Shown: one piece after another, positions 4,259 through 63,201 of the stretch
How the letters are laid out: every line of letters starts with the position of its first letter
Position numbering within the stretch: position 1 is the stretch's first letter
Assembly (NCBI RefSeq): GCF_018860505.1
Contig: NZ_JAHKPU010000002.1
Coordinates: 1-64,000 of the forward strand
DNA: 64,000 nucleotides
Direction of reading: 5' to 3'
Origin: Pacificibacter marinus
Lineage (GTDB): Bacteria > Pseudomonadota > Alphaproteobacteria > Rhodobacterales > Rhodobacteraceae
Translations under genes and position numbers: made by a program
The notes under the pieces: generated by a model
What the model was told of the DNA's origin: nothing
What the model saw: the letters and a program-made list of their open reading frames with translations, nothing else
Database searches by the model: none

Positions 4259-4388
4259 GGGTATCCGGCTCCGAAGATGTTCAAGTGCTGCGTATACGCA
4301 CAAGGACCCGATCTGCCAAGGGCTTGCGGGGCAGTTTTATGGGAAGTTTTGACCAAATCGACAGGGTTGCACGTTCAAATCGTGCAAC

Positions 4389-5294: not shown

Positions 5295-5328
5295 ATGTGA
5301 GCGCCATTCATAATAGTGTTGAGAACTA

Positions 5329-5341
5329 TGAATTTGTCTCA
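5329..5341. promoter_or_regulatory. Candidate MetR box between metR-like gene and metF
   Basis: TGAATTTGTCTCA matches the MetR consensus TGAA-N5-TTCA at seven of eight fixed positions. It lies about 50 bp upstream of the metF ATG and 35 bp from the regulator start. A wider imperfect dyad (TTCATAATAGT near 5307 against ACTATGAA at 5325-5332) overlaps it. Confidence 0.5.
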
Positions 5342-5389
5342 CATGGCGCGACATGACACAAGACGGTCAAACACATAAGGACGACCACT

Positions 5390-6232: not shown

Positions 6233-6261
6233 GTTTTCAGACGCAAAACCAAAGCGTCTTC

Positions 6262-6287
6262 GGCGCGTGCTGGAAACAGTGCGCGCC
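6262..6287. terminator. GAAA-tetraloop hairpin between convergent genes
   Basis: An 11-bp stem (GGCGCGTGCTG paired with CAGTGCGCGCC, two G-U pairs) is closed by a GAAA tetraloop. It lies 30 bp after metF and ends at the stop codon of the convergent gene. No T run follows, so termination is only likely, not certain. Confidence 0.4.
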
Positions 6288-7339: not shown

Positions 7340-7463
7340 CTTTTAGAAACTCACTGAACGCTTGCTCAAAAAACGGCACCTCTTGCGTGGCGCGCGCAAA
7401 ATTCACCGCAGGAGGCGAGCCACCCAAAATCCTGACCTGCTGACATATTTTGCCCTGTCTCAC
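7317..7463 (-). CDS. Possible small protein upstream of the DUF2235 gene
   Basis: A 48-codon frame with GTG start at 7463, a very good ribosome-binding site (TTAAGGAG, 6-nt spacer) and a stop that lies 23 bp inside the DUF2235 gene. The frame contains VNFARATQEVPFFEQAF and resembles no family I know. The strong RBS and the overlap suggest translational coupling. The alternative is a leader without a functional product. Confidence 0.4.
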   Translation of the reverse strand: MRQGKICQQVRILGGSPPAVNFARATQEVPFFEQAFSEFLKGDMRAVS

Positions 7464-7480
7464 CGCGCACTCCTTAAACC

Positions 7481-7522
7481 AAAACGGCCCCTTTGCCGCA
7501 GACTATCGGGCAAAGGGGCCGT
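7481..7522 (-). terminator. Strong terminator after decarboxylase gene
   Basis: A perfect 14-bp stem (ACGGCCCCTTTGCC against GGCAAAGGGGCCGT) is followed on the minus strand by TTTTGGTTT, 37 bp past the decarboxylase stop. Confidence 0.85.
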
Positions 7523-7558
7523 GTAAAAGGCAATAGATTGTGAAGCCGGAAGACTGAC

Positions 7559-8734
7559 TTATGCGTAGAGCGGCTCTTGCGCCACGTCAGGTTTAACGAG
7601 GCTTTGCACCGTCTCGATTGTGATATTGCCAAACCCGTTGAACCGTGTGGCCGTCGCGATGGAATAGGCGCCGCAACCGGCAAAAACCAAGTGGTCTTCT
7701 TCCTCCATATCCGCAGGAAAGCCCAATTCGGACGGCAATTTGTCAGTGCTATCACAGGTGGGACCAAAAACGGTTCGCAACACTGGATCGCCCATACGAC
7801 GGTTTCCATACTGACCGTAGGCTTCGATACGATCAATAACACCGACCAAGTGCAACTCGGACAGCCCGCCATAAATCCCGTCATTCAAAAACACATGCGC
7901 ATCATCGCGAATGGCTTTCACGCGGGTGACAAGCGAAAAGCTTTCCGCCACAAGCGCACGACCAGGTTCACAAATCAATGCGGGACGCGCATCGCCAAAG
8001 GCCTCATCGGTAACGCGATCGATCAAGGCGAAGGTCGCGGACAGCTGTGGCACAACATCGTTCAAACGGTGTGACGGGAATCCGCCGCCGACATTTAGGC
8101 GGTGAATGTGTACGCCAGTGACTTGAGCAATCTCGGCCGCCGTATAGATGTAAGTTTCCCAAGCTTTTGGATCAGTGCATTGCGTACCTGGATGAAAATT
8201 AAGCGAGACATCAAAGCCAAGCTGATCCGCCAAAGTCACCAGTTCCATAGCTTTTTCAACCGTCGCGCCAAATTTGGCACCAAAGTTATAAGCAGCCCCT
8301 TCGACCGGCAGTTTAAACCGCACGGCAATTTCAACACCATCTGCTGGCACCAATTGGCCCAGTTTCACCAGTTCAGAATGGCTGTCGACGGAATAGGATT
8401 TCACGCCCAGCGCGACGGCATGTTTGATCTCGGACCGCGAGCGCACAGGATTGTTGTAATGCAGCGCTGCATGTGGCGCCAAACGTGCGATGGTGTCCAT
8501 TTCCACAGGAGAGGCCACATCAAAGCCGCTAATACCAGCCGCGATCAGGTTGATCAGAACCTCTTCGTCTGGATTGGCTTTGACCGCATATGTCACAAGC
8601 CCAGGGAATCCTTGCAAAAATTCATGTGCACAGGCCTGAAGCGTTTCAGGTGAAAAGAACATAACCGGATGATCCGGTGAATGTGTACGAAGGTAGTCTG
8701 CGGGCGATGCCCAAAGAGTATTAGAGAGCCCCAT
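7559..8734 (-). CDS. Type III-fold PLP-dependent ornithine/lysine decarboxylase
   Basis: A 391-aa alanine-racemase-fold (eukaryotic ODC-like) decarboxylase that makes putrescine or cadaverine. The PLP Lys is K52 in YAVKANPDE. Other motifs are GGGFPSH, CEPGRALVA (phosphate binding) and GPTCDSTD with the active-site Cys (C327) and Asp. Start at 8734 is supported by GAGGAAA with a 5-nt spacer; an in-frame Met at 8764 lacks this. It is followed by a strong terminator and is divergent from an Lrp-type regulator that may control it. Ornithine and lysine cannot be told apart by eye. Confidence 0.92.
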   Translation of the reverse strand: MGLSNTLWASPADYLRTHSPDHPVMFFSPETLQACAHEFLQGFPGLVTYAVKANPDEEVLINLIAAGISGFDVASPVEMDTIARLAPHAALHYNNPVRSRSEIKHAVALGVKSYSVDSHSELVKLGQLVPADGVEIAVRFKLPVEGAAYNFGAKFGATVEKAMELVTLADQLGFDVSLNFHPGTQCTDPKAWETYIYTAAEIAQVTGVHIHRLNVGGGFPSHRLNDVVPQLSATFALIDRVTDEAFGDARPALICEPGRALVAESFSLVTRVKAIRDDAHVFLNDGIYGGLSELHLVGVIDRIEAYGQYGNRRMGDPVLRTVFGPTCDSTDKLPSELGFPADMEEEDHLVFAGCGAYSIATATRFNGFGNITIETVQSLVKPDVAQEPLYA

Positions 8735-9010
8735 TAGCGTTTCCTCACCAACAGTTGCAGCCACTATCTTACCCGGGGTGTCCGGTTGGGAATGCGCTTA
8801 CGCGTTAATCCAAACCAGGCCAGGTACAAGCGTCTCCGCTGCCCTTTGATCCTGAAACAATAGAGCGTGTATGACGTGACATTTCACCGAAAAAAAGAGT
8901 TGAAATGTACATATGATACGTTATTTTGTAAGGTATTGAAGTTAATTTGTTAGTTATGTAGCATCCCCTATCGGCCAAGACTGGGGGTCGACTTTCAAAA
9001 GGAACGTTTC

Positions 9011-9442
9011 ATGGATGATTTGGACCAAAAAATACTCGCAGCGATGGCCACTGATTCATCGACCTCTGTCTCGCGTTTGGCGCGACGGTTTAAGGTCGCA
9101 CGCTCGACCGTACAGGCGCGATTGGAAAAGCTAGAAACCAACGGGACGATTGCAGGCTATACGATCAAATTGGGGGATGTCGCTTTGGCTCGACGGGTCA
9201 AGGCCACGGTGTTGGTCTATTGTGAACCACGCGCCTCCGCTGGTGTGGTCGGCAAGCTCAAGGCTATACCCGATGTGGAAATGGTGGCCACATCAACAGG
9301 GCGTGTTGATTTAATTACACAAATTGCTTGTGCCACCACCGAAGATATCGACCAAACATTAGATCAGATTACCTCGATCACGGGCGTTCAAGACATTGAA
9401 AGTCTGATTCATCTCAGCGTCAAATTTGACCGCTCTATTTAA
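9011..9442 (+). CDS. Lrp/AsnC family transcriptional regulator
   Basis: A 143-aa regulator with an N-terminal HTH (about residues 4-50, SVSRLARRFKVARSTVQARLEKL) and a C-terminal RAM effector domain containing STGRVDLITQIACAT. Start is the ATG after AAAGGAACG. It is divergent from the decarboxylase gene with a 276-bp AT-rich intergenic region, a usual arrangement for autoregulation and control of an amino-acid catabolic neighbour. The effector is unknown. Confidence 0.9.
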   Translation: MDDLDQKILAAMATDSSTSVSRLARRFKVARSTVQARLEKLETNGTIAGYTIKLGDVALARRVKATVLVYCEPRASAGVVGKLKAIPDVEMVATSTGRVDLITQIACATTEDIDQTLDQITSITGVQDIESLIHLSVKFDRSI

Positions 9443-9456
9443 CGATGCCCGACGCA

Positions 9457-10602
9457 TTATGCTGCGGCATGAGGGGGCAGACCGCTTCGGGGCGTATTTC
9501 CTGTTTCACTTGAAGTGGCTTCGCCGCGCGCGATGGCGTCGATCACCCGAAGAGATAAGGCGATCGAGCGCCCAGGGTCAGCAAGCTGGTTGGTTGTGCC
9601 CACCGCATAAATTTTGAGCTCAGGGGCATAAAACGCAAAACTGCCCCCAAAGCCAAAGTGACCATAAACTGCAGGCAGCTTACGCCCCCATAACCAAGGT
9701 TCTTTAAGACGAAACTTGAGCGCCACCAAGCGTGATGCATCAACACGCATCACCCCAAGACCGTAGTCAATAGGCGGATGCAACGGCTTCCAGTCGTACA
9801 AATCACGGATGTGCCGGCGTTCGAACAAATACCCTTCAAAGAAACTGCGCAAGAAAATCAACCCTTCGCGCGAGGTCGTCACCAAGCCGGCATCAGCTTG
9901 AAAAGACGTCATGGTGCGCGGCACTAAAACTTCTTTAGCGTGAGACATCAAATTGGCGGGCCGTGTGTCAGAGGGGTCGTTGTAAATATACGAGGCTGTC
10001 AACCCAAGGGGCTGCGTGATGCGGTCTTTCACAACCTGTGAAAAACTTTTTTGTTCGAGCGCCTCGATCACCTTTCCCAAAATATGAAAATTGCTGTCTG
10101 TATACAGGGCCGTGGGCGAGGCCCCAGGGACATCAATTGCGCCATGGGACCGTGTGCGCGAAATCACATCCTCAAACGTCCAAGAGGTATCAACACCCTT
10201 TGTCAGGGCATGTTGCAAGTCTCTGGCGTGATTGCGAAAAACAAAAAAATCACCCAAACCTGACGTCTGCGACATCAGATGCCGAATGGTGATGTCATCA
10301 GTATAATCGACAGCATCTTTGACATGAATTTCGAGGCATGATTTGCTATCAGGTATGTAGGATATAAAGGGAGTATCAAAGGCCACTTTGCCTTCATCGC
10401 GCAGCTGCATCAAAATCGCCACCACATAAAGCTTTGCCATGGAGGTCGCGAAATAAGGTGTGCGCGCATCCAACTGTCCCGCATTGAAATTGTAATGTGA
10501 TGCATCTGACTGTCGATACGCGGAAATTGTGATCCCGCTGTATTGCGGGCTTTTCACCATGCGATCAATGTTTCGATCAAGATGTGTTCGCCTGTCGCCC
10601 AT
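9457..10602 (-). CDS. Serine hydrolase, beta-lactamase/esterase fold
   Basis: A 381-aa class C beta-lactamase-like serine hydrolase. The SxxK catalytic motif is S54-M-A-K57. The second motif reads YTDSN (Asp at the third position, as in many D-aminopeptidase/esterase members), and HFGFGGSF stands in the KTG-like position. No signal peptide is evident, so it is probably a cytosolic esterase or peptidase rather than a periplasmic beta-lactamase. It is convergent with the Lrp gene (14 bp gap). Confidence 0.85.
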   Translation of the reverse strand: MGDRRTHLDRNIDRMVKSPQYSGITISAYRQSDASHYNFNAGQLDARTPYFATSMAKLYVVAILMQLRDEGKVAFDTPFISYIPDSKSCLEIHVKDAVDYTDDITIRHLMSQTSGLGDFFVFRNHARDLQHALTKGVDTSWTFEDVISRTRSHGAIDVPGASPTALYTDSNFHILGKVIEALEQKSFSQVVKDRITQPLGLTASYIYNDPSDTRPANLMSHAKEVLVPRTMTSFQADAGLVTTSREGLIFLRSFFEGYLFERRHIRDLYDWKPLHPPIDYGLGVMRVDASRLVALKFRLKEPWLWGRKLPAVYGHFGFGGSFAFYAPELKIYAVGTTNQLADPGRSIALSLRVIDAIARGEATSSETGNTPRSGLPPHAAA

Positions 10603-10932
10603 GCTGCATGTCTCCTATCGCAGCCTATCTTTTAGGTTCAAAACCTTAAGTCACCGTCAATTTTTAATGGCCGCTAAGTGGCGATTTTTGGGCACCAAGT
10701 GACGCATTTCAACACCCGTAGCCTCGGTTTGCTAAATATGCCCCTCCCCCGTGCTTGCATCCAAACATCACAGGCCCCCCCTAGGCCTGAAAGCGCAAAA
10801 GACCGACAAATGTCATGACGTCTTACGAGATTGTCCATTTAGCGGAGCAACATCCACGGGTTTCACCCTTTCCCTCGCCGTGGCCGCGCGGTACATATCG
10901 CGCAACAGGAATGACGTATTAGGCGGCTTATC
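10603..10932. other. Intergenic region upstream of valS
   Basis: This region separates the start of the serine hydrolase from valS and must hold both promoters. A short hairpin (CAGGCC / GGCCTG near 10771-10790) is visible. A 61-codon frame at 10751-10936 runs into valS and has no support. I see no riboswitch or T-box. Confidence 0.4.
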
Positions 10933-13900
10933 ATGACCATGGACAAAGTTTTTGACGCGAAAACAGCGGAAACGCGGATTTATAGCGATTGGGAAAAGGC
11001 GGGGGCTTTCAAAGCTGGCGCCAATGCATCGCGCGAGGACACCTTTACCGTCATGCTACCACCCCCCAATGTGACGGGCGCTTTGCACGTCGGCCACGCG
11101 TTTAACCACACTTTGCAAGACATCATGGTGCGCTGGCACCGGATGCGCGGCTTTGACACCCTGTGGCAGCCCGGCCAAGACCACGCAGGCATCGCGACGC
11201 AGTTGCAGGTCGAAAAGAAACTCATGGCTGATGAGGGCAAAAAACGCGCTGATTTGGGCCGCGATGAATTTCTGTCCCGCGTCTGGGATTGGAAAGGCCA
11301 ATACGGAACGACAATTATCGAGCAAATGAAACGCTTGGGCAATTCCTGTGACTGGTCCCGCAACGCCTTTACCATGTCTGGTGCGCCAAATGCGCCTAAA
11401 GGCGAAGAAGGCAATTTCCACGATGCTGTGATCAAAGTCTTTGTTGAGATGCACTCCAAAGGCCTGATCTATCGCGGCAAACGCCTGACCAACTGGGACC
11501 CGCATTTTGAAACCGCGATTTCCGATCTCGAAGTGGAAAACATCGAAGTCGCGGGGCACATGTGGCACTTTAAATACAAGCTCGCGGGTGGTGACACTTA
11601 CGAATACGTGGAAAAAGACGAAGACGGCAATGTGACTTTGCGCGAGACCCGCGATTACATTTCCATCGCCACCACGCGCCCTGAAACCATGCTGGGCGAT
11701 GGCGCTGTGGCTGTACACCCAAGCGACGAGCGTTACGCGCCAATCGTGGGCAAAATGGTGCATCTGCCGCTTTGTGATCGTTTGATCCCGATTGTCACCG
11801 ATGAATACCCCGACAAAGACTTTGGATCAGGTGCGGTGAAAATCACCGGCGCGCATGATTTCAACGATTACCAAGTCGCCAAACGCTGCAAATTGCCGAT
11901 GTACCGCCTGATGGATCGCAAGGGCGCGATGCGCGATGACGGCGAGGCTTATGACGTTTGTGTGGACCGCGCGCGCGAAATTGCGGCGGGGGCCGAGGCC
12001 ACTGAATCTGAAATCGACGCGCTGAACCTTGTGCCAGAAAAATACCGCGGCATGGATCGTTTTGATGCGCGCAAAGCTGTGATTGCGGACATCACCAACG
12101 CTGGTTTGGCTGTAATGCATACCGTCACAAAAAAAGTGAAAGACGATGAGGGCGTTGAAACTGAGGTTTCTGAAGTCGTGCCCTACGTTGAAAACAAACC
12201 TGTGATGCAGCCCTTTGGGGATCGGTCCAAAGTGGTGATCGAGCCTATGCTGACCGACCAATGGTTTGTTGATGCTGAAAAGATTGTTGAGCCTGCGCTT
12301 GAGGCCGTTCGTGATGGCAAAACCCAGATCATTCCTGATTCAGGGCGTAAAGTGTACAACCACTGGTTAGAGAATATCGAACCTTGGTGTATTTCGCGTC
12401 AATTGTGGTGGGGGCACCAGATTCCAGTTTGGTATGGACCGCAAGCTAAGGTCAACAAGGATGGATCACGCGTTCTATTTTTCGACGAGTTCCACGCAAT
12501 TTGTGCAGCCACAGAAGCTGAAGCTGTTTCAAAATTTGAAAAATATTACGAAGGCGCTCGCGTTGTCGCTACGGACCTTAGCGCGAGCGAGCTAGTCGAA
12601 AAGCAGTTGTCTGACGGCTTCAATGACCCGAACCACCCAGAAATCGAGGGAATTGGGATTTTCAGAGACCCCGACGTCCTAGACACATGGTTCTCCTCCG
12701 GCCTTTGGCCTATCGGTACGCTCGGCTGGCCTGAGTGGACGGAAGAAACATCGAAATACTTTTCGACAGACGTGTTGGTCACAGGCCAAGACATTCTGTT
12801 CTTCTGGGTGGCACGCATGATGATGATGCAATTGGCTGTGGTCGACGAAGTGCCATTCCACACCATTTACCTGCACCAGCTCGTGCGTGACGAGAAGGGC
12901 AAGAAGATGTCCAAGACCACGGGCAATGTCATCGATCCGCTGGAAATCATTGACGAATACGGTGCCGATGCGTTGCGTTTCACCAATGCGTCCATGGCCG
13001 CCATCGGTGGGGTTTTGAAACTGTCCGAGGACAGCATCAAAGGCTACCGCAACTTTGGCACCAAGATCTGGAACGCCGCCCGCTTTGCCGAAATGAACCA
13101 AGTGTTCGAGGTCTATGACCCCTCCGTGATGCCAACACCAAAAGCCACGGTGAACAAATGGATCATCGGCGAAGTCGCCAAAACCCGCGCCGAAGTTGAC
13201 GCCGCGATTGAAGCCTACCGTTTCAACGATGCCGCCAACGCGCTTTACGGCTTTGTTTGGGGCAAATTCTGCGACTGGTATGTGGAACTCGCGAAACCAT
13301 TGTTGTTTGCTGAAGACGAAGCGGTCTTGGCCGAGACACGTCAAACAATGGGCTGGGCCTTGGACCAAGCGCTTATAATGCTGCACCCCTTCATGCCGTT
13401 TATCACCGAAGAACTTTGGGGCACCGTGCAAACAGATCGCGGGCTTTTGGCCGTCACCGATTGGCCAACCTATGGCGCGGAATTGATCGATGCCGATGCG
13501 GATCGTGAAATGAACTGGGTGATCAATCTGATCGAACGCATCCGGTCCTCACGCGCTGAAGTGCACGTGCCCGCGGGGCTGAAAATCCCTATGGTACAAG
13601 TTGACTTGGATGATACAGGCAAAACCGCTTGGGCCAACAACGAAGCCCTGATCATGAAGCTTGCCCGCGTTGATAGCCTGACTGTCGGCCCGATGCCAAA
13701 AGGCGCGATCACCATTCCGGTTGAGGGCGGCACATTCGCGCTGCCGCTCGCGGGCGTGATCGACATTGCTGAGGAAAAAGCACGGCTTGAGAAAACCATG
13801 CAAAAACTGGCCAAAGAACTGGGCGGTTTGCGCGGACGCTTGAACAATCCGAAATTCGCGGCCTCTGCCCCTGCTGATGTTGTGGCCGAAGCGCAAGCCA

Positions 13901-49069: not shown

Positions 49070-50068
49070 TTGGGCGTCGTCACCTGGATGGTTGAGACAA
49101 CCGACAACTTTCTGGACGACGCGGCCCAAACCACCTTTGGCAACGTCGCCAGTCAGCTTGGCGGCGTCATCGCCGTGGCCTCGACGCTGGCTGTGATCGG
49201 CGTCTTCCTCAACATGGTGTTTCAGTACAAGTCCATGGATGGGCGGACCGCGTTCTGGTTCGCGCTCAAACTCATGCTCATCTCGCTGTTTGCGATGAAC
49301 TGGGTCCAATTCAACGCGGTGGCCAGCGCCCTCATCAACGGGCTCGACCAGCTTGCGGGCGGCATGGTTGCAGGGCTTGGCGGCGGCGGTGCAGGTGCAT
49401 CCTACTTTGCTGGGGCCTTCGACGATCTCATCGAGGAATTTGGCGACTACTTGAACGCGGCCGGTGACAACATGCATTGGATGGCCGGTGCCCTCATCGG
49501 TGCGATTGGCGCGTTCCTTTTGGGCGTCATCGGCGCGCTCTGCGGCCTTGTCCTGATCTTCGCCAAGATCATGCTCGCGTTCATGATCGGCATCGCCCCC
49601 ATCATGATCGCGCTTTCGCTGTTCGACGTCAGCAAAGACTATTTCCACCGCTGGCTGTCCAGCACAGTGTCCTACGCGCTCTATCCTCTCGTGATCGCGG
49701 GCGTGTTTTCAACCGTCGTTGGCATGTCGCGCTCGCTGATGACAGAACTTGGAGATCCCTCCGGCGCAAGCAACATCGGCGCGCTGGTGCCCTTCTTCAT
49801 AATGATGTTCCTCGCAGGCGGCATGATCATCGCCACCCCGCTGATTGTGCGCTCAATCTCCGGCAACTTCATGATGGCCGGACCGCCGAGCATACCTGGA
49901 CCTAGCGGGTTCGCGAAGGGCTTGATTGGCACCAAGGGGTCACGGGCACGGGCGCGGTTTGGGACAAGGTCGAATGCTGAGATCGCTGGGGCTGGAATAC
50001 GTCAAGCAGGTGGTGCGACTGTCTCGATGGTTCAGCGGGTGGCTGAGCGTGCGAAGCGGTTGGACTAA
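49070..50068 (+). CDS. virB6: VirB6/TrbL-type polytopic membrane protein
   Basis: A 332-aa inner membrane protein with six or more membrane helices and a Gly-rich central loop (VAGLGGGGAGASYF), matching VirB6/TrbL. TTG 49070 with AGGAG 6 nt ahead is the likely start; a Met at 49088 is an alternative. The basic C-terminus is cytosolic. It is the last gene of the operon. The cargo gene on the other strand ends 86 bp away. Confidence 0.92.
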   Translation: MGVVTWMVETTDNFLDDAAQTTFGNVASQLGGVIAVASTLAVIGVFLNMVFQYKSMDGRTAFWFALKLMLISLFAMNWVQFNAVASALINGLDQLAGGMVAGLGGGGAGASYFAGAFDDLIEEFGDYLNAAGDNMHWMAGALIGAIGAFLLGVIGALCGLVLIFAKIMLAFMIGIAPIMIALSLFDVSKDYFHRWLSSTVSYALYPLVIAGVFSTVVGMSRSLMTELGDPSGASNIGALVPFFIMMFLAGGMIIATPLIVRSISGNFMMAGPPSIPGPSGFAKGLIGTKGSRARARFGTRSNAEIAGAGIRQAGGATVSMVQRVAERAKRLD

Positions 50069-50153
50069 ACGTCTCGGTTAAATTCAAACCTCGTCGCTTC
50101 ATGCCATGCATTTCAGCTTGGGTAGCCACTGGCGTCGCGGCCTTCCCTCGCAT

Positions 50154-51884
50154 TTATGTGCCCTTAGAGGTGGCCGCGACCAAAACATCAGAGCAAGTTT
50201 CATCTCGTCCACAAAGCGCCAAAATGGATTTTGCACGCGAAATCCCAACGTAGAGCGTCTCGCGCTTTTCTTCACCAGGCAAATCGTCGAGGCCCCACAA
50301 GATCAGAATTTCACCCTCTAGGCCCTTGAACCTTGCGACAGTCTCCACTGTGACACCGTGTTTTCCAGTGCTCGCGAGATCTTTCCAACCAAGCCCAGAC
50401 GGTAGCAACATGCCTTGTAAAGCGTTTTCGTATTCCTTGCGTCTAATTCTGTCAGCGATCAATACGACGATGGAAGCGTTCGGCAACTTTTCAACAGTGA
50501 TCAGCCGGGATACGAACTCTTGGATTTTCTTGGCCTGGCTGCGCAAATCTGGGGCTGCTAATATCTGGATATCGTCGCCAACAATCTCCGGCGGATCGAT
50601 CGAAGGCCCCTTGTAGTAATGGTAGGCAGCTTCATGGATGGCCCGGGTATTACGGCAGTTGAAGGAAAGTGTGATTGGCGAGGCGTCGGCGGGAAAGGTG
50701 CTCGCTCGCGTGTAAACGTCTTGGTTCTCATCGTGAAAAATATAGAGTGGTGAAGTATTGCCGTCCCGCAGCAGCATTTCGATTGGAAGCCAATACTCTT
50801 CTCCAAAATCTTGGCCTTCATCGACGACGATGGCGTCGTAGCGAACATCGACGACATCGAGCGCATACGCTAGTGCGATCGGAAAATAGTGATCCCAAAG
50901 TTCCAATCCAGGGAAGGACACCTTGGCCTCGGCGATCAGATCTCGCCCGCTCTGCCGACACGCGTCATCCACGATACGCTTACAGAGTTTGTGAAAACCA
51001 AAGACATCAAGGTTTTCTTGGCCGCTACAAACGTCCTCCAAATGGCTTGCCAATGGGACGTTGTAGCAGGTCAGTAGTGTTTTGAAGCCTTCATCTGCAA
51101 GCCGCTTAGCTTTCTCGACTGCTAGAACCGTCTTCCCAGTTCCTGCGCCACCGCTGATCGCGACCCGCCTTTGCCTGGAGAGCAGATCTAGAGTTTGAAT
51201 CTGCCGATTGGTCAAGCTCAGTCGCTGACTTTCCTCTAGCTCGATTTGAGCGGACAAGAGCGGCCGAGCTTGCACGACGCGAGCAAATATCCGCTGCATC
51301 AGCTGCACACCACCAGCACCTAAAGAGTTGGTCCAAGAATTTGCACCGTCGCTGGACCAATAGTCGAAAGCTTGCTCCAACCAAGCTTCGAGATTGGCAA
51401 GATCCGACCGATCTCCGATGATTTCCGGTGGGGCATTGGGGCCCTTCAAAGCCCGTCCATCATCCACGTCCGGAAAGAATGCTGCGTGCCCCGCCGAAAT
51501 CTTCTTGAGGCCCAAGCGCGTCCAGTCCCGGTGTTCCCTGAGCTTTGACAGGACATTGAACTTTCCCGTCATGGATTGGCGAAATGGATCCTTGATTTTG
51601 TGCTCTCGACCATTTCGATCGATTGATGACCACTCGCCTGATGTGTAGTCCGCACGAATGCGCCCCCCCTTGACCTCCACGACCAAAAATCCGCGATCCG
51701 GGTGACATACGAGAAAATCAGCTTCACCGTCCCGAGCACTACCCTCGGTTCTGGAAATCCAGCCGACAGAATGGAACATGTGGTAATCGCCTTCTAGGGA
51801 GGCGCAAGCTTCGTAGAATTTGATTTCAGCGGAGGGTACGTCTTCCCCGTAGTTCCCTCGATAGTCTGGATAAAGTCTCACCAC
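50154..51884 (-). CDS. NERD-nuclease/UvrD-like superfamily 1 helicase
   Basis: A 576-aa protein. The N-terminus is a NERD nuclease domain of the PD-(D/E)xK type with E20, D56 and E70-V-K72. The Q motif (LTNRQIQTLDLL, about 225) and Walker A GGAGTGKT (245-252) start an SF1 helicase core. Walker B is VVDEGQDF (near 356) and motif VI is TLYVGISRAKS. It ends right after motif VI without the Tudor-like tail usual in UvrD/PcrA. The start is GTG 51884, 4 bp after the stop of the large upstream gene, with GGAGG nine bases ahead inside that gene. Frame extension to 51920 is not needed. It is translationally coupled to the NOV/sacsin-like gene. Confidence 0.88.
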   Translation of the reverse strand: MVRLYPDYRGNYGEDVPSAEIKFYEACASLEGDYHMFHSVGWISRTEGSARDGEADFLVCHPDRGFLVVEVKGGRIRADYTSGEWSSIDRNGREHKIKDPFRQSMTGKFNVLSKLREHRDWTRLGLKKISAGHAAFFPDVDDGRALKGPNAPPEIIGDRSDLANLEAWLEQAFDYWSSDGANSWTNSLGAGGVQLMQRIFARVVQARPLLSAQIELEESQRLSLTNRQIQTLDLLSRQRRVAISGGAGTGKTVLAVEKAKRLADEGFKTLLTCYNVPLASHLEDVCSGQENLDVFGFHKLCKRIVDDACRQSGRDLIAEAKVSFPGLELWDHYFPIALAYALDVVDVRYDAIVVDEGQDFGEEYWLPIEMLLRDGNTSPLYIFHDENQDVYTRASTFPADASPITLSFNCRNTRAIHEAAYHYYKGPSIDPPEIVGDDIQILAAPDLRSQAKKIQEFVSRLITVEKLPNASIVVLIADRIRRKEYENALQGMLLPSGLGWKDLASTGKHGVTVETVARFKGLEGEILILWGLDDLPGEEKRETLYVGISRAKSILALCGRDETCSDVLVAATSKGT

Positions 51885-51888
51885 GGCA

Positions 51889-54800
51889 TCAATCCTCCAG
51901 CAATTCCATAGTGGTCGCATTGAAGGTAATTGATTTCGTTCCCCAATCTTTGAATTCGATTTTGAGCTGGGTCATGACGCCGATTTTCTTGATTTCGAGG
52001 ATTGTTCCAACACCAAAGCCTTCTACTTGGATACGGCGGCCAGCTACGAATTGTGCTTTGTAGTCCCCTCCCTTTTCTTCCGCGACCTCTCGCCAAACCC
52101 GATCGAACCAAAATTCATCTGCTTTGAAAAATGGATTTTTGATCGCATTGATCTTTCTCTTCTTTGGCTCCAAAGCGTGTTCGACGACGTAGAGCCAAGC
52201 TTCATCTGGATGATCCTGGGCGAATGAAATCTGAGTTCTTGAGAGCTTCACCCCTCTGTCGGTCCATTCACCGTCCAAACCTTTCACCTCGATGAGGCGC
52301 TTCTCGTCAGCATTTTTCGATCGGGACATTACATCGTAGCCTGGATTGAAATGCGGCTGACGTTCGGGCAGGAAATCTCGGTTCAGCTCGTAATCCATCA
52401 CTGCTTTCATGGCCGCCTCGTCGATTGCCGAAATCCGCTCACGACTAGGTCCAGATCCTTTCCCGGCTTCTCCTGGCTCGCCTTTCTCGGGTTTGACGTA
52501 AGACCTCATCCATTCGGTTCTTGCCTTCCTAGTGGTTTTTGCGGGGTCCTTGTCTATGGATGACGATCCAGAGCTTGAGCCTGGAGTTTCGCTCGTTGCA
52601 GATCCAGACGACCCTTCACTTCGCTTGCGGCCAGGCTCTTGGGTTCCTGAAGATTCAACACCAGTTGCCTTTTTGTTGGCTTCCGCTGCGATATGCGCGT
52701 CGGATGCGGCTTTCTCTGCACCTATGTCTGGGTCGTCGATCACCTCGTCGTCTTCAATATCCCAATCGGCTGGATCTTGCTCAGATCCCGTTCCAAAACC
52801 GAGCTCCCCGACTTCGTCTTCAGGCAGCACTTCCGTTGGAAATTCTTCTGTCTCTGGCGTGTCGTAGCCGGCTTGCCTGAGTTCGCAAGCCGCATCTTCG
52901 CGAGAATTTGCACTCAGTACCAACTTGGCAATCAGAGCAAGCTGGCCGATTGACGCTTTGCTTTCCCCAGCCAATAGCGTTGAGAATATCGCTCGAAAGG
53001 CCGGAATCCAGTAGTTGCCAAACAAGTCTAGAAGCACATAAACCCTCGCCTCGTCGGAATCGAAGACCACTTCGTCATTTCGTGGCGGCGACGCGAACGG
53101 AACATCATCCAACTCGAAGATAGAACGAGCGGTCAGAGCATCCGTCCGAACCAGTTCGATATTTCGCAGTGTCTTTTCTAGACGTTTCCTTGTTTCCCTG
53201 CGTAGATCGATGCATAGCCATCCAAGGAGATCACTTCGTTCTCGCACCAACTGCGTCGCATATTCGTCGTCGATCACTTCGCCCAATTCAACGATTTCCA
53301 GCCGAGTCACCAGAGATAGCGGTCGTATCTTAAACCAATCGATGAGCTCTACCGTCTCAGCAGACGAGCGCACCAAACGTGCGTCCAGATCTCCTCCGAA
53401 CGGCTGTGCCAGCCAATCACTGTCCTGTATGGCGACTTCGTCGACGAAAGCGAGTGTTCCAGCGAGGGTGAATAGAAACGGATGCTCCCGAAGTCGTTCC
53501 AGTTGCAGAGATGTGCCCGCGGGATCGTCGCGTAGCTTCTCTGAAAGGGTTTTGGTGCAAACATCATGAACCAGCGAGATTTCACCGGGCAAAAGCGACG
53601 CGTCGCCACCAAACTCGTCTGCTATGTCGATCAAGACGTCTACGTATGTTTCGGTGGAGGGCTCTTCAGTTACACCAAGAAAATCGAATAGCTCCTTGTA
53701 TTCATGCATCCATTCTGGTGCCTTGAAACAGTACCGTGCCAGATGCGGTTTGCTCCAAAAGAAACGATCGGTTCCGATGAACTCCTTCCTCTTGGGGGCG
53801 TAGATGCATTTCTCGTTCTTCAATCGCTCGATGAAGAACTGGTCGTCTTCTTTCTTCAGGCGCTCACTCAATATCTGATAGCTGTGCTTGCTCGGCTCCA
53901 CTCCTCGTTCGATACAGTCTTCGAGATGGTCGACGATGATCGACGTGTCCGGTTCTGCCGGCATTTCGAGAAATTCCAGGAATTCCCTATTCAGCCGACG
54001 CCCCATACCAGTTACACCTAGCACTGCCACCTGTGACGAAAACCCTCCCGCCCGGAATGGCTGATGCAATTCATGTGGGGCATACCAATACTCGGTATCC
54101 AGCTGGCCTTCTTTCTCGGCGGGAAGCCAATCCGTATGCCGCATTCTTGATATTTCGGCCTCGAACTGCTCCTCATTCTTAGCCAAACTCTCGTCTTGAT
54201 AGACTTCGAGTATGAAACCAAAGATTTTGGAAACCGCGCCTCGTGTTTTCTCTGAGGGCGGATCTGCCACGACCGCTTCGATCCTATCCATGGCGTGCGT
54301 CAGCGAAGGCCTGGATCGCATGCCAAGTGACCGAAAGAAGCCCAGATAGAGTTCCTTTCTCGACTCGCCGAAGATGCTTTCGTCGACCCATAGTGCATCA
54401 TCGGCTCCTAGAATTTCGGCGAGCGCATCGGTCTTCGCGTAACAATCTCTGGCAGCTCTCAGGAGGCCATCCTTGGTTTTTACCAAAGGCAGAGCAGCCA
54501 AGGTCTCCTTCGTGCTTTCTTTATTGAGCAAGTCCTTCTTTGATACGAACACATCGAGCAGGGCAACGTAATGCTCTTTTGAGAGGTCTTCGTCCAGAAT
54601 GTCTGCCAAATGCTCTTCGATGTAGGCCTGGAGCGTCAACGTTTCGACTTCCAAGACCTCTTTGAGGAACTTTCGCGCCCTATCCCCGAAGTAATCGAGA
54701 TCCAAAGTATCGAAGCGACCAATCGGATCGTCAAAACCTCCGGGTAAGACGGCCAGTCGTGGCGTCAAAAAACGTCCATGGCCTGCCAGAAATGGCGTCG

Positions 54801-56694
54801 AAGCCACATTTGCAGAGTAATCATGGTCCTCATCGCGGGGATACTCGACTAGAAAATCATAGAACGCACGTACCCGTTTTTTATCGCGAGACAAGAATGA
54901 AACGGCAGTCTCTTCATCTTGCACCCATTCTGCCAGTTCCCCCAGGAGATCCTCGAAGACGAACGCAGGAGCGAGTGAGAAAAGCTGTGGGAATTGTTGG
55001 AATTCTTCCGACGCCATCGGCAATTCAGGGAAAAAATTGCGAACATCTTCTACTTTTGCCTGGGCAGGCAGCCTTTTCAATTCGGACAGCTTAGCCAATC
55101 GGCCGTCGAAACTTGGGGCAATCCGCAAATTACACAGTTCTACTTTTTGCCGTCGCAGTTCGATCTCCGGTCCGCTAATCACTCGTGACTTCTGCCTCGG
55201 TTTTTCTGGCAGTGAACTTTCCAAGAAATCTTCTAAGATACGCCATAGAGGAGAGACGGTATTGTGCAGACTGGGCCAATCCGGTTCGGAATCATGGTCA
55301 AATTCGGCCTGATCCCAGGACGTCAGAGAGCCCACGAGTCTCTTTAGGGTCAAATCAGACACACCCGCCGCTCGTACGACAGATTTGAATGACAGCAATG
55401 ACGAGTTGACTGTCGGTATTCCTATTTTTTGCAACGACCTTTCTTGGTCAACCCCGAATTGCGCCGACAAAATCCAGCAATCCGACCGCCCAACCCACTC
55501 GTTGGCACTCGTCAAATAAATATCAGCGACTATGGCCGCTTTAGAAATCTCCGCCCAGAACACCCCGAAGTTGTCACTGTTTCGATTTTGGTGCGCCTCG
55601 TCTATGAGCCTCCAAAGCCCCTTGGGACCGAGAACATCCCTCAAGCTTTCGAGACGCCCAGCGATTTCCTGGGCAGCATACGCCAAAAGCATCTCGTTCC
55701 AATGTCGTTCGTGCTGCTCACCAGTGAGAACGAGAGCTTTTCGAGTCTGCTCAGGAAAAAAGTCCGCGTTGATGTGGCAGGGTACCGGCGAATCCTGTTC
55801 GGTGGGAAGGTACGCAAAAAGTCGTCCCGTACGTTCCTCGTGATCGTCGAGCCGAAAGGCGATTTGAGCGGTAGTTTGTCGGTCCAACCTCTCTATGACC
55901 ACGAATTTCTCTTTCAGCGGGCGCGCTGCCTCTTCGGCATCCAAGTGGATGACGTACCACTTTTCGCGCTTATTCTTTCTTTCGAAAAAAAGTTCTAGGT
56001 GGTTTTCATCGTCGACGGACTTCTGAACGAAGCTAACTCTTTTTCCGTTCCGTAGGATCTCTATCGAACCCAGGTTTTTCAAGAATAGAAGGCAATCTTC
56101 GGCGGTGGTCACCAGATCGTCTTGAAGTGGCTTTAAGCTCTCCAACGAAAAAGCAGAAGCGCTGAGAGCCTCCCTAATTGGGCTTCGGTCATCCAGCGCC
56201 CACGTTATCTGAATCTCCGATCCATCGACCGGATCGATCGTTCGGATCTGGTTCTTTTCGGACAGAGGGTTGAGCGTTAGTTCGACGTCCCCAGAGCGAA
56301 TGATCGGTTGATCCGTCAATTGATAAACCGAGACGAACCCGATCCCGAACCTACCGATCAATCCCGGCTGATTATATTTGTTTCCGCTCCCGACCTTGCT
56401 GATCGCATGGAAATCACATGCCTTTCTTTTGCCGAGCTGCGGGCTGCCATCTCTCGTCCAAAGGCACTCATCCGAGTTCAATCCACAGCTGAGGAACACT
56501 GCGTCGTTCCACACGATCAGTGCGTTGTCTGTGATGTCGAAACGAATGTTTTTAGCACCCGCATCGTCCGCATTCTGGATAATCTCGCGGGCCATCGAAT
56601 CGAAACCCTGTAGACCCGTCAATATTTGCCGGATGTTGCTTATCAGCGGTGCAGAGTAGGAAAGTTCTCTTACTCTTTGGGCATTGGACGGCAT
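51889..56694 (-). CDS. Sacsin/NOV-type ATPase with DUF3883 and Tudor-like tail
   Basis: A 1601-aa protein. The N-terminus is a GHKL (HSP90-like) ATPase of the sacsin type: REIIQNADDAGAKN (E37, N41, D43) and the G-rich GRFGIGFVSVYQ (114-124). A long middle of about 1200 residues has no motif I recognise. An acidic, Ser/Gly-rich linker lies near 1310-1400. A NOV_C/DUF3883 domain follows with PGYD (D1454) and IEVKG (E1469, K1471), a PD-(D/E)xK-like layout. The last ~55 residues (VEGFGVGTILEIKK and EFKDWGTKSITF) look like the Tudor fold at the end of UvrD/PcrA helicases. Start is ATG 56694 with AGAGG. The partner helicase gene follows. A defence role is inference. Confidence 0.88.
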   Translation of the reverse strand: MPSNAQRVRELSYSAPLISNIRQILTGLQGFDSMAREIIQNADDAGAKNIRFDITDNALIVWNDAVFLSCGLNSDECLWTRDGSPQLGKRKACDFHAISKVGSGNKYNQPGLIGRFGIGFVSVYQLTDQPIIRSGDVELTLNPLSEKNQIRTIDPVDGSEIQITWALDDRSPIREALSASAFSLESLKPLQDDLVTTAEDCLLFLKNLGSIEILRNGKRVSFVQKSVDDENHLELFFERKNKREKWYVIHLDAEEAARPLKEKFVVIERLDRQTTAQIAFRLDDHEERTGRLFAYLPTEQDSPVPCHINADFFPEQTRKALVLTGEQHERHWNEMLLAYAAQEIAGRLESLRDVLGPKGLWRLIDEAHQNRNSDNFGVFWAEISKAAIVADIYLTSANEWVGRSDCWILSAQFGVDQERSLQKIGIPTVNSSLLSFKSVVRAAGVSDLTLKRLVGSLTSWDQAEFDHDSEPDWPSLHNTVSPLWRILEDFLESSLPEKPRQKSRVISGPEIELRRQKVELCNLRIAPSFDGRLAKLSELKRLPAQAKVEDVRNFFPELPMASEEFQQFPQLFSLAPAFVFEDLLGELAEWVQDEETAVSFLSRDKKRVRAFYDFLVEYPRDEDHDYSANVASTPFLAGHGRFLTPRLAVLPGGFDDPIGRFDTLDLDYFGDRARKFLKEVLEVETLTLQAYIEEHLADILDEDLSKEHYVALLDVFVSKKDLLNKESTKETLAALPLVKTKDGLLRAARDCYAKTDALAEILGADDALWVDESIFGESRKELYLGFFRSLGMRSRPSLTHAMDRIEAVVADPPSEKTRGAVSKIFGFILEVYQDESLAKNEEQFEAEISRMRHTDWLPAEKEGQLDTEYWYAPHELHQPFRAGGFSSQVAVLGVTGMGRRLNREFLEFLEMPAEPDTSIIVDHLEDCIERGVEPSKHSYQILSERLKKEDDQFFIERLKNEKCIYAPKRKEFIGTDRFFWSKPHLARYCFKAPEWMHEYKELFDFLGVTEEPSTETYVDVLIDIADEFGGDASLLPGEISLVHDVCTKTLSEKLRDDPAGTSLQLERLREHPFLFTLAGTLAFVDEVAIQDSDWLAQPFGGDLDARLVRSSAETVELIDWFKIRPLSLVTRLEIVELGEVIDDEYATQLVRERSDLLGWLCIDLRRETRKRLEKTLRNIELVRTDALTARSIFELDDVPFASPPRNDEVVFDSDEARVYVLLDLFGNYWIPAFRAIFSTLLAGESKASIGQLALIAKLVLSANSREDAACELRQAGYDTPETEEFPTEVLPEDEVGELGFGTGSEQDPADWDIEDDEVIDDPDIGAEKAASDAHIAAEANKKATGVESSGTQEPGRKRSEGSSGSATSETPGSSSGSSSIDKDPAKTTRKARTEWMRSYVKPEKGEPGEAGKGSGPSRERISAIDEAAMKAVMDYELNRDFLPERQPHFNPGYDVMSRSKNADEKRLIEVKGLDGEWTDRGVKLSRTQISFAQDHPDEAWLYVVEHALEPKKRKINAIKNPFFKADEFWFDRVWREVAEEKGGDYKAQFVAGRRIQVEGFGVGTILEIKKIGVMTQLKIEFKDWGTKSITFNATTMELLED

Positions 56695-56932
56695 TGGGGT
56701 AACCTCTATTGGGAACGAACTAGCTAAGCTGCTCGAAAGATGTTTTGTTGAATTCGATGCTGCAAAATTTGAATATTGCAGTTATGTATTGTGATTGTTC
56801 TTATTGCAATCGTTCCATATTTTTTTGACCCCTTTAAGCCTACCTGTCACCTACCGCTTCTGCAGCATTCCAAGCGCGGCTATGCAATATGCAATCGTGA
56901 ATCTCCTGCCACCCAATTGGTGCTTCGTGCCC

Positions 56933-58825
56933 TCAGCCATTGTACGCGCTCTCCAAAAACCGTTCCACCCGATCTGTTCCTGCCTGATACTCGTCCAAAC
57001 TGGGCTTGTCTTCGTTCGGCTCACCCTGCTCTTTGCTGGCCAAGTCGTTGATCTCCTCACGCTGCTTCCCGCTACTTTCAAATCCCGCAGCAGGTATCAC
57101 CTTCGGCACCTCCAGCGCCCCAATCTTCGCCTCCAGCGCCTTAATCTGCCCTTGCAGGCCGCGCATCTGATCTCCCGCTGAGGGATATGGCAAATCGCCA
57201 GTCTGCTTGTCGAAGATCTGCTTAAAGAAGCGATCCTCATAGTATTTGATCCGCTTGGCGCGGACAGGCATTTGCGCGTCAACCACCAAGACGATGTCAT
57301 CCAGATCCATGCGCCGCGCCTCATCCTCAGGCAGCAATGCGGTTTCTTCCGTTCGTTCAGACATACTGCGCCCGGCGAAGGGGTTGCGGCCGACCGAGCG
57401 CGAGCGAGTCACAACACGCTTGGTGGTTTTGCCGACGGCCTTGCTCAGCTCCTCGATGGTCTTCTCATCTGAGGGGGTCAGATAGAGCTTGATGCCCGCG
57501 TTGCCCTGCAAGGCACGTCGGGCATTTTCGCCGTAGATTTCATCGAGCACAGGGATGGTCTGGGTGACGATCGCGAGATTGGCGCGGTAGGATCGCAGCG
57601 TCTCGATACTGTCGAGCACGATCGGCATTTTGCCCAAGCGATTGAACTCATCGAGCATGATCATCACCGGCCAAGGCTCGTCCTTGCCGGGTTCATGGTC
57701 CTGCAGAGATGCCAGCAAGTCCGAGAAAAACAGGCGGATCAGTGGCGCGAGCGGTTTCACCATGAGCGGTTCGACCACGAGATAGATCGAAAACGGCGTC
57801 TTTCGGATATCGCGAAAATCGAAGTCTGAAGTTGCGGTTGCCCGATCGATTGCGGGGTTCGACCACTGCTTGAGGCCAGATGTCATCAGAAGCGACAGGT
57901 AAGACGTCAGCGTGTCGTTGTTGGTCGAGGCCATGCGCATGAAAATCAGCTTGGCGGCTGGATTGACCACTTCATCAGCGCGGCGGCGATATTCCTTCTG
58001 CTTGTCCCCGCCTGATGCGGTGATGCGGTAGATCTCGCCCAGGGTCGGCCGCTTTCGCTCAAAGGCCAGAAGCCCTGCCGCAACAAACAGATCGATGCCG
58101 CCATCGAGGAGCCCCTGAACCCGATCGTTGTCAGCTTGAAGAAACAGCGAGGCCAGGAGCTGCAGCTCCATCTGCTGGCGGTCGACGTTTTCCAGCGCCG
58201 ATATGCGCAACAAAGGATTGTAGCGATGCGAGCGGCCGTCTGTCCAATCAGTGGGCGCAAACCGGAACACTTTGTCGCCCTGCGCGGCCCTGTGGCGTGC
58301 TGTTGCTTCGAAGTTTTCGCCCTTCACGTCCAGCACCACGGCACTGCCCCGATAGGTCAAAAGGTTCGGGATGACGAACCCTGTAGTCTTACCTCGCCCG
58401 GTCGGGGCCACGATCAGAGCATGGGGGAAGACCTTGGACATGACAAAGGGTTTGCGGCTCTTGGGCTTGCCCATTTTGCCGAGGACAAAGCCGTGGCCGG
58501 GCTTGCCGAAAAAGCCGTTCCGCCTCATCTCAGACATGTGCTGCCAGTGGGTTTCTCCGAACTTGGTCAGTGCGTCATTCATCAGGACGGCACTGAGCAA
58601 GACACCGGCACCGGTGCTGATCCCGACAATCAAGTGAACGATCTGCATATCGTCCGGATGGGTCGTTCGAAGAACCCCATAGCTGCGTGCCAGCATCAAG
58701 AAATCGATCTCCGCCCCAACCCCGAACCAGCGGAACGACAGAAAGGCCGACGCCAGAACATACCCCAGCACCGCGCCGAGAAGAGCAAAGCTCAAGACGC
58801 CGAGTGCGATCCGCGTCTTACCCAT
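56933..58825 (-). CDS. virD4: VirD4/TraG-type coupling protein
   Basis: A 630-aa T4SS coupling ATPase. Two N-terminal membrane helices lie before residue 90, then Walker A APTGRGKTTG (140-149) and Walker B MIMLDEFNRLG. It recruits the relaxase-DNA complex to the VirB channel. Its start overlaps the relaxase stop by 8 bp. It is convergent in layout with the virB operon, with the cargo pair between them. Confidence 0.95.
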   Translation of the reverse strand: MGKTRIALGVLSFALLGAVLGYVLASAFLSFRWFGVGAEIDFLMLARSYGVLRTTHPDDMQIVHLIVGISTGAGVLLSAVLMNDALTKFGETHWQHMSEMRRNGFFGKPGHGFVLGKMGKPKSRKPFVMSKVFPHALIVAPTGRGKTTGFVIPNLLTYRGSAVVLDVKGENFEATARHRAAQGDKVFRFAPTDWTDGRSHRYNPLLRISALENVDRQQMELQLLASLFLQADNDRVQGLLDGGIDLFVAAGLLAFERKRPTLGEIYRITASGGDKQKEYRRRADEVVNPAAKLIFMRMASTNNDTLTSYLSLLMTSGLKQWSNPAIDRATATSDFDFRDIRKTPFSIYLVVEPLMVKPLAPLIRLFFSDLLASLQDHEPGKDEPWPVMIMLDEFNRLGKMPIVLDSIETLRSYRANLAIVTQTIPVLDEIYGENARRALQGNAGIKLYLTPSDEKTIEELSKAVGKTTKRVVTRSRSVGRNPFAGRSMSERTEETALLPEDEARRMDLDDIVLVVDAQMPVRAKRIKYYEDRFFKQIFDKQTGDLPYPSAGDQMRGLQGQIKALEAKIGALEVPKVIPAAGFESSGKQREEINDLASKEQGEPNEDKPSLDEYQAGTDRVERFLESAYNG

Positions 58826-62122: not shown

Positions 62123-62326
62123 TCATCGCAACGCCTCCTCAAGGATTGCGAGAGCCCCAAGACAATCGTCGATATAGGGCTGCTCCTCGCCGTCCAGATC
62201 GTTCATCTCCAGCCGGTTCAAGACCGCGTAGAGCGTGGCACGCGCTTCACGGGCCGCGCTTCGCAAGCTGACGGTGTCTTCCAGACGTGCGGTCGCAAAA
62301 TCATCGCTGTGATAGTCGGGAGTCAT
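62123..62326 (-). CDS. Small acidic protein coupled to ardC
   Basis: A 67-aa acidic, helical protein (MTPDYHSDDFATARL). It has a perfect RBS (AAGGAGG, 7-nt spacer) and overlaps the ardC stop by ATGA. It is probably made together with ArdC. No family recognised. Confidence 0.75.
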   Translation of the reverse strand: MTPDYHSDDFATARLEDTVSLRSAAREARATLYAVLNRLEMNDLDGEEQPYIDDCLGALAILEEALR

Positions 62327-63201
62327 GCTGCCACCTCCTTGCTTTGACCTGCTGCTTGCAAAGCAAAGTCTGTGGCTTTCTGCGCTTCAGATGCCGCACG
62401 AAAAATCGCCCGCTTGTCTTCTTTGAGAGCCTGTAACCATCCTTCGACATAGGCGGCGCTTTGACCGAACTCAGGCGCCACGCCAATCTGAGCCCCAAGG
62501 AAACAAGCACCGATTTCCGCCACCAGCTCTTCAAAGGCATAGGCTTCGCGGTTCGCAAATTTCTTGATCCGCTCAAGCCGCTTTTCGCTGCCAGTCCAAT
62601 GGATCACCTCATGGGCCAACGTCCCATAATAGCCTGCCGCATCGTGAAACGTGGCAATCGGCGGCATGTGGATGTGATCTTTGGCAGGGCTGTAATAGGC
62701 ACGCGGGTCGTCGCTGGTGAGGATCTCCGCCCCTGTCCGGCCGAAAAACGCTTCAAGGTCCGGATCTCCCGCCGTGCCAAGATCGCGCGGGGCCTCGGGC
62801 CGGATGTAGTAATCCTCCGGCAAACCTTCGATCTGATCAGCATTGAAGACGCGGTATGCGCGCGCATAGGGCAGCTCTTCCTCGATGCCCAACTCGTTCT
62901 CTCTGGTGAACGTCCCGTATTTGACCACGGTCGAGGACGTTTCGCCTTTGCGGACCTGACCGCCAAGCTCCTGCGCCTGTTTGTAGGTCATCCAGCGGCT
63001 GGACACACAACCATGCTTGGCCGCCATAATCCAGAGCATCAGGATATTAATCCCGCGATACTCCTCGCCGTTGTGTCGGGTCGGCAGTGCAATGCCAGAC
63101 GCGCTTCCGGTCCACGGCTTGCGCCATGGCGGCGTGCCCGCCTCGATCTCTGAAATAATGGTGTCGGTGACATGGGCATAAACATCAAACTTCGGTGCCA
63201 T
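62323..63201 (-). CDS. ardC: ArdC-type antirestriction protein
   Basis: A 292-aa protein with the N-terminal ArdC ssDNA-binding domain (IEAGTPPWRKPW, YRGINILMLW, TYKQAQELGGQVRKGE) and a C-terminal zincin-like metallopeptidase with HEVIH (H197, E198, H201). ArdC proteins protect incoming conjugative DNA from restriction. RBS AAGGAGG is six bases before ATG 63201. It lies on the leading side of oriT and is transcribed toward it, downstream of a strong inverted repeat at 63392-63466. Confidence 0.94.
   Translation of the reverse strand: MAPKFDVYAHVTDTIISEIEAGTPPWRKPWTGSASGIALPTRHNGEEYRGINILMLWIMAAKHGCVSSRWMTYKQAQELGGQVRKGETSSTVVKYGTFTRENELGIEEELPYARAYRVFNADQIEGLPEDYYIRPEAPRDLGTAGDPDLEAFFGRTGAEILTSDDPRAYYSPAKDHIHMPPIATFHDAAGYYGTLAHEVIHWTGSEKRLERIKKFANREAYAFEELVAEIGACFLGAQIGVAPEFGQSAAYVEGWLQALKEDKRAIFRAASEAQKATDFALQAAGQSKEVAA

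Follow-up and report, generated by a model that had tools for sequence, protein, structure and literature searches.

A TmtA-like GHKL ATPase gene and a NERD nuclease-helicase gene as a candidate two-gene Tiamat variant in a conjugative-element slot of Pacificibacter marinus

Introduction

Two adjacent genes of Pacificibacter marinus, termed A and B here, lie between virB6 and virD4 of a conjugative element, and the locus raises the question of whether they act together as one defence system and whether that system already has a name. The original prediction, made from the DNA sequence, regarded them as a candidate new defence system for which no named system was known. This study examined the composition of both genes, their conservation as a pair, their genomic setting, and the other partners of the B family. 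All coordinates refer to the window, namely the whole stretch of 64,000 nucleotides that was analysed (contig NZ_JAHKPU010000002.1, assembly GCF_018860505.1).

Results

Composition of the two genes

Gene A was located at 51889..56694 on the minus strand by its open reading frame and translation, encodes 1601 aa, and is TmtA-like (Tiamat family) by its PADLOC match. The PADLOC Tiamat model PDLC03969 TmtA scored 1260 bits over residues 6-1597 of the 1601, and by this near full-length model match the predicted product of gene A is TmtA of the known Tiamat anti-phage family. Therefore, the earlier view that no named system was involved fails for the main protein, and the family of gene B is likewise modelled in PADLOC.

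The predicted GHKL ATPase N-terminus and DUF3883 domain of A were both recovered by Pfam. The sacsin-type GHKL/Hsp90-like ATPase domain covers residues 16-144 (56263..56649, minus strand; Pfam SACS, 84.6 bits), and the profile matches of this region include the sacsin structures 5v44-5v47. The PD-(D/E)xK-like NOV_C/DUF3883 domain covers residues 1426-1511 (52162..52419, minus strand; Pfam NOV_C, 46.4 bits) and was present in 43/43 scanned A C-termini. In an alignment of 47 A frames chosen by length, the ATPase residues E37, N41, D44, G114, G117 and G119 were invariant in all 45 rows with letters there, and the NOV_C residues D1454, E1469, K1471 and Q1488 in 47/47. A UvrD/PcrA-type tudor-like domain is tentatively placed at residues 1552-1588 (51931..52041, minus strand), since Pfam PcrA_UvrD_tudor matched 24 of the 43 A C-termini at E<=0.01, with the window's own A below the cut-off. 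No Pfam match to an OLD/TOPRIM domain was found in gene A, GajA was absent among its PADLOC matches, and PADLOC gave no match in A to DrmA, DrmB or DruE, nor to DruE in B among the 25 listed out of 31 families.

Gene B (50154..51884, minus strand, 576 aa) was identified by translation, PADLOC and Pfam as a NERD nuclease joined to an SF1 (UvrD/Schlafen-like) helicase, as had been predicted. Its GTG start at 51884 lies 4 bp beyond the stop of A, and its likely ribosome-binding sequence, GGAGG, is found inside the end of A at 51894..51898 (minus strand, read from 51898 to 51894), 9 nt before the GTG. The coordinates, strand and lengths of both genes, the 4-bp spacing, and the ribosome-binding site within A all agree with the original prediction.

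The NERD nuclease core occupies residues 20-103 of B (51576..51827, minus strand) and was recognized by its conserved residues and by Pfam NERD in relatives: 34 of the 37 aligned B proteins matched, and the window's own B missed at 1e-3. The SF1 helicase core spans residues 225-557 (50214..51212, minus strand), where AAA_19 and UvrD-helicase exceeded the Pfam cut-offs and UvrD_C_2 fell just under. Among 38 B frames chosen by length, the NERD residues E20, E54, D56, E70, K72 and Q103 and the helicase residues K251, D355, E356 and R411 were invariant in 38/38, and the later helicase motifs were kept in all rows but one or two. The four residues that had been proposed for mutation (E37, D1454, E1469 and K251) are hence conserved throughout. 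The closest solved relatives of the B helicase by profile were SLFN11 (Schlafen-11) and SLFN5 (Schlafen-5), followed by UvrD1 and PcrA. The PADLOC matches of B include RTasNERD-Hel (225 bits) and C3a187 'NERD+UvrD' (92 bits), two models whose names do not refer to TmtA. When the NOV_C and NERD profiles were compared, their D...EVK motifs were aligned with a probability of only 36%, and therefore a common origin of the two is not claimed.

Conservation of the gene pair

An alignment of four A proteins was used to scan a collection of 84,980 species genomes, with a bias in that three of the four seed proteins came from paired loci. The scan yielded 542 pattern hits and 179 relatives, and the best 80 of the 179 relatives gave 79 loci, consisting of 52 close relatives of A (L018-L069) and 27 weaker ones. 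Leaving out three of the 52 owing to contig ends (L062, L065, L066) gave 49 informative loci of the TmtA clade, in which the B site was searched with 38 B queries.

The adjacency that the original prediction had put forward for checking in other genomes was found in most of these loci: among the best 80 of 179 relatives, B, in some cases broken, lies directly downstream of A in 40/49, and B remnants occur at the downstream site in a further five (L032, L042, L054, L059 and L064). The 38 queries found no trace of B downstream of A in four of the 49 (L019, L046, L055 and L052), L052 being scored with just 1125 bp of downstream DNA. In the paired loci, the start of the first B-like stretch falls between 19 bp ahead of the A frame's end and 249 bp past it, and A and B overlap or nearly abut in most pairs. 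Both frames are seemingly open in 33 clade loci, which are the 34 loci selected by length minus L061, in which the B match extends no further than about residue 372; the B genes of L033 and L034 are cut by contig ends.

After the weaker TmtA relatives within the same best 80 of 179, three B queries found no B in any of 24 informative loci, these being the 27 minus L088 (no A frame) and L082 and L092 (249 and 692 bp of downstream DNA). Six of the 24 were scanned with PADLOC, and all were TmtA. A long TmtA relative (642 bits) was also observed on the plasmid pRadio3 of Deinococcus radiophilus (L014), with genes for a DNA methylase, a specificity subunit and a DUF262 protein in the place of B.

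Samples that were not seeded by the pair were also searched. In 390 genomes of the host's order, three full-length A genes were found, each followed by B (one of them frame-broken), and among 369 genomes belonging to one gammaproteobacterial class A occurred in two, both with B; one of these two is a seed genome, and in the other the match does not cover the first 97 residues of A. Among viral contigs, B accompanies two of three long A genes. According to record titles, the system occurs in Alpha-, Beta- and Gammaproteobacteria, Geobacter, a Rhodothermales bin and a cyanobacterial bin. Therefore, from the locus counts and the unseeded samples, the A-B system is rare, and pairing is the rule within the TmtA clade.

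The two genes also descend together. Over the 36 loci common to the A and B alignments, the distance matrices of A and B were correlated with a Mantel r of 0.969, which none of 5000 permutations reached (largest value 0.43). Of 24 well-supported splits in the A tree, 16 recur in the B tree and four conflict with a well-supported B split, and the losses of B are dispersed across the A tree. The pairwise dN/dS values, 0.11-0.14 for A and 0.05-0.08 for B, demonstrate purifying selection on both genes. Because of these values of 0.05-0.14, together with the retention of the pair in other genomes, the pair is more than a chance neighbourhood. A search for a recurrent third gene around 40 pairs, in which frames of 80 aa or more up to 6 kb away gave 348 neighbours, found none, the commonest family being present at six loci. 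Flanks longer than 3 kb were available upstream of the pair at 36 loci and downstream at 29. At one further locus (L017), scattered pieces of A that are 84-91% identical to the window's A were observed with no B found there, which represents a decayed copy.

The cargo slot of the conjugative element

The position of the pair as isolated cargo between virB6 and virD4, also part of the original prediction, was confirmed by Pfam. The left border of the slot is the virB6/TrbL gene (49070..50068, plus strand; TrbL), the right border is the virD4/TraG coupling protein gene (56933..58825, minus strand; T4SS-DNA_transf and TraG-D_C), and the slot between these convergent genes (50069..56932) is defined by the breaks in DNA similarity and by other cargo in relatives. 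The virB6 region was matched in 41 of 295 genomes of the host family, and the slot was compared in seven of those 41, all from other genera, in which the match extended along nearly the whole query (L151-L157). The virB6 proteins of these seven related elements are 94-97% identical, and virD4 is 90-94% identical in the six whose contig reaches it. The DNA similarity ends at 50062-50069, at the virB6 stop codon, in 7/7, and restarts in the 3' part of virD4, at 56951-56964 in five and at 57105 in one of the six reaching virD4.

The gaps thus bounded range from 2.0 to 7.1 kb in the six measurable elements. Their G+C is 0.47-0.55, compared with 0.59-0.61 for the transfer genes, 0.52 for the window cargo and 0.53 for positions 1-38000 of the window; since the cargo is close to this last value, G+C alone is uninformative on its origin.

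Concerning the contents of the slot, L155 carries IetS (984 bits) with IetA (514 bits), L156 carries Septu PtuA (130 bits) with PtuB (76 bits), and L154 carries PDC-S06 with an SbcCD-like pair (896 bits), the gene layout of which is equal to that of L157 (a comparison of layout only). L151 holds component B of PD-Lambda-2 by itself (358 bits), L153 an SMC-like ATPase with a match to the Lamassu-like LmuB (88 bits), and L152, whose contig stops short of virD4, a ResIII helicase that matches PDC-S71 weakly (66 bits). By these model matches, the slot appears to carry mostly genes of known or candidate defence systems. Therefore, the defence-matching cargo of the relatives is the best contextual evidence that A-B would be a defence system.

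At other sites, the five scanned neighbours of the pair in Ruegeria conchae, in which the B copy is frame-broken, comprise matches to MkoA (Mokosh-like), DEDDh, a cytosine methylase and a DrmD/DrmA model, with one unmatched. Of five neighbours in Loktanella salsilacus (L016), one matched PDC-M72B (98 bits), one gave a weak Cas3 match, and three were unmatched. Scans for promoters and terminators found nothing that exceeded shuffled sequences, and the repeat search gave no usable result.

An anti-restriction gene of the ArdC type, encoding a zincin domain, is located past virD4 on the same side (62323-63201), and related elements carry it as well. In L153, a partial second virB6 (86% over 96 residues) lies past the ArdC gene at 8318-8605, beside a transposase-like frame. 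A phage origin of the pair was considered and rejected, as 50,697 phage records were nearly empty of A and B: they contained one partial A match (8% covered) and one B-like gene with 29.8% identity over 90%.

The B family with other partners

B-family matches at 1e-20 were found in seven of the 390 order genomes, three by TmtA, three after DrmA and DrmB, and one after DruE. A tree was used to place 18 full-length B genes that do not belong to the PDLC03969 clade (four from order genomes, eight from viral contigs, and six from plasmids; the DrmA-DrmB- or DruE-linked loci are L122-L125, L098-L105 and L126-L131). Partial genes (L101, L106-L113) were left out, and the plasmid genes were taken from six of 51 records. 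A DrmA-like sequence is present in the locus of 13 of the 18; B comes after it and shares its strand in ten, and is on the opposite strand in L098, L099 and L129 (the last one weak). Among the remaining five, three B genes come after DruE, one (L097) comes after a different TmtA, and one has none of these.

In the L097 locus (4211-11662), a divergent TmtA (PDLC03965, 1907 aa) has a B-family gene 6 bp on. The TmtA-linked B genes, including this one, form one group in the tree with a support of 1.0, separate from the DrmA- and DruE-linked genes. No further B-paired TmtA outside the main clade was found beyond L097 in 299 genomes, plasmids and viral contigs, part of this search being uninformative when empty, and a search of viral contigs with the DruE-linked B found none.

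Discussion

A and B constitute a conserved operon with joint descent, preserved catalytic residues and a place in a slot shared with other cargo. These observations carry the explanation, which we consider probable from sequence comparison, that A and B are one two-component anti-phage or anti-mobile-element system, a Tiamat variant with a dedicated NERD nuclease-SF1 helicase, carried as cargo in a conjugative-element slot that is also used by other defence systems, and working by the mechanism proposed below. Accordingly, the original idea of a candidate defence system stands as far as the conserved operon in a defence-used slot, the ATPase, the two nuclease-like centres and the helicase are concerned, and has to be given up as far as it placed the pair outside any named system.

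Concerning the mechanism, GHKL proteins dimerise or clamp upon ATP binding, NOV_C and NERD are PD-(D/E)xK-type nucleases, and SF1 helicases of the B kind move on single-stranded DNA. The GHKL ATPase of A would be a clamp or switch powered by ATP, which recognizes either invading DNA or a complex made by the phage. The C-terminal PD-(D/E)xK and tudor-like domains would next nick the DNA or anchor it, and B would be recruited for its unwinding and degradation. In such a scheme, A would serve as sensor and loader, and B as the effector that unwinds and cuts.

A different use of the same parts would be abortive suicide, in which the host's DNA is destroyed by an indiscriminate nuclease-helicase that the ATPase sets free. 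The nuclease residues are kept in both proteins, and several loci with an open A have a lost or broken B, as might be seen for a costly effector. We nevertheless regard this explanation as unlikely; the argument against it is indirect, namely that in three loci B is open where A is split, so B is not obviously toxic alone.

Less likely still is that A is an ordinary single-gene Tiamat and that B is a separate, co-transferred nuclease-helicase defence gene providing a second layer with no joint mechanism. The absence of B from the 24 weaker TmtA loci searched with three B queries would fit this explanation, as would the occurrence of the B family with other partners. Further, among the best 80 of 179 relatives, A is a long open frame in ten loci that lack an intact B, where B is broken (L020, L040, L061), a remnant (L032, L054, L059, L064) or without trace (L019, L046, L055), and three B-less A genes that were tested are under constraint, with dN/dS of 0.10-0.14 as against 0.09-0.17 for B-bearing A. 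Of all results, these ten loci speak most against a machine that strictly needs both parts, and from them and the equal constraint, A alone may keep a function, or the losses of B may be recent. On the other hand, the overlap or near-abutment of A and B in most pairs, the five remnants at the B site, the congruence of the trees (r 0.97), and the lack of another recurrent neighbour argue against two independent genes, as does the grouping of TmtA-adjacent B genes (support 1.0) apart from those adjacent to DrmA-DrmB or DruE.

It is very improbable that the pair serves the conjugative element as an accessory for DNA processing or entry exclusion instead of acting in phage defence: it does lie between virB6 and virD4, after virD4 on the same strand, but other genes occupy the slot in the seven related elements, the neighbours elsewhere are quite different (for example DrmD/DrmA-like among the five scanned by defence models in Ruegeria conchae), and the G+C of the pair is lower than that of the transfer genes, though similar to that of positions 1-38000.

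Returning to the two-component Tiamat variant, its likeness to Tiamat (PADLOC PDLC03964-PDLC03972) lies in gene A, which combines a GHKL ATPase and DUF3883 with intact residues. Millman et al. are said to have described Tiamat in 2022 as a single gene, whereas in the present clade a NERD-helicase comes directly after it in 40/49 loci, plus five remnants, among the best 80 of 179 relatives. The predicted two-gene form of Tiamat would be new; the TmtA and NERD-helicase families themselves are already modelled in PADLOC. The pairing of TmtA with a NERD-helicase was not met in the main texts of the open-access papers that were consulted. Available parts of the literature place Tiamat among systems of unknown mechanism (a 2026 review, PMC12926258) and report TmtA-like matches on plant sequences in plant samples (PMC12409356).

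Several other systems resemble the pair in part. B matches both the NERD-helicase of RT systems (RTasNERD-Hel, DRT) and C3a187, but no reverse transcriptase lies beside the window's B, the neighbours of which are A and virB6. Gabija (GajA/GajB) also combines a large ATPase with a UvrD-like helicase, and weak GajB matches occur in B (<=33 bits); however, A has no OLD/TOPRIM match, and B bears a NERD nuclease. Nhi contains a nuclease and a helicase within one chain, as B does, but its model gives B just 21 bits, with the best stretch at residues 224-271 and no full-length match. The available part of one report lists NERD for Mokosh type I and Nhi-like systems (PMC10952713).

With respect to DISARM and Druantia (systems with YprA-type helicases), B-family genes follow their DrmA-DrmB or DruE elsewhere, whereas the window pair has a GHKL ATPase in that place and transfer genes as neighbours. 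B would occupy the position that DISARM gives to the nuclease after DrmB; in the available part of a 2025 preprint on YprA helicases, the PLD nuclease DrmC of DISARM comes after the DUF1998 protein, and NERD is mentioned only for the rare TALON systems (PMC12458937). TALON, as described in that part of the preprint, is similar to A-B in having a NERD nuclease beside a large ATP-driven defence protein, and unlike it in being rare, largely from Chloroflexota, and composed of a YprA helicase with TPR-CSD and TBP genes.

Taken with the B tree, these comparisons lead us to lean slightly towards the idea that several unrelated defence engines (the GHKL protein TmtA, the YprA-type DrmA-DrmB, and DruE) share the NERD-SF1 helicase as a general-purpose nuclease unit placed downstream, each being served by a separate, partner-specific lineage. 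The TmtA form would then be a two-gene Tiamat type, with a sacsin/Hsp90-like ATPase doing the job of the helicase of DISARM and Druantia, and the common B module would tie Tiamat to DISARM- and Druantia-type systems.

The conserved partner gene would provide a direct handle on the mechanism of Tiamat, for which it predicts a DNA-directed effector. Given the reportedly single-gene definition of Tiamat, the TmtA model by itself would annotate half of the system. Finally, the virB6-virD4 slot may serve as a site for seeking more defence genes in the conjugative elements of the host family.
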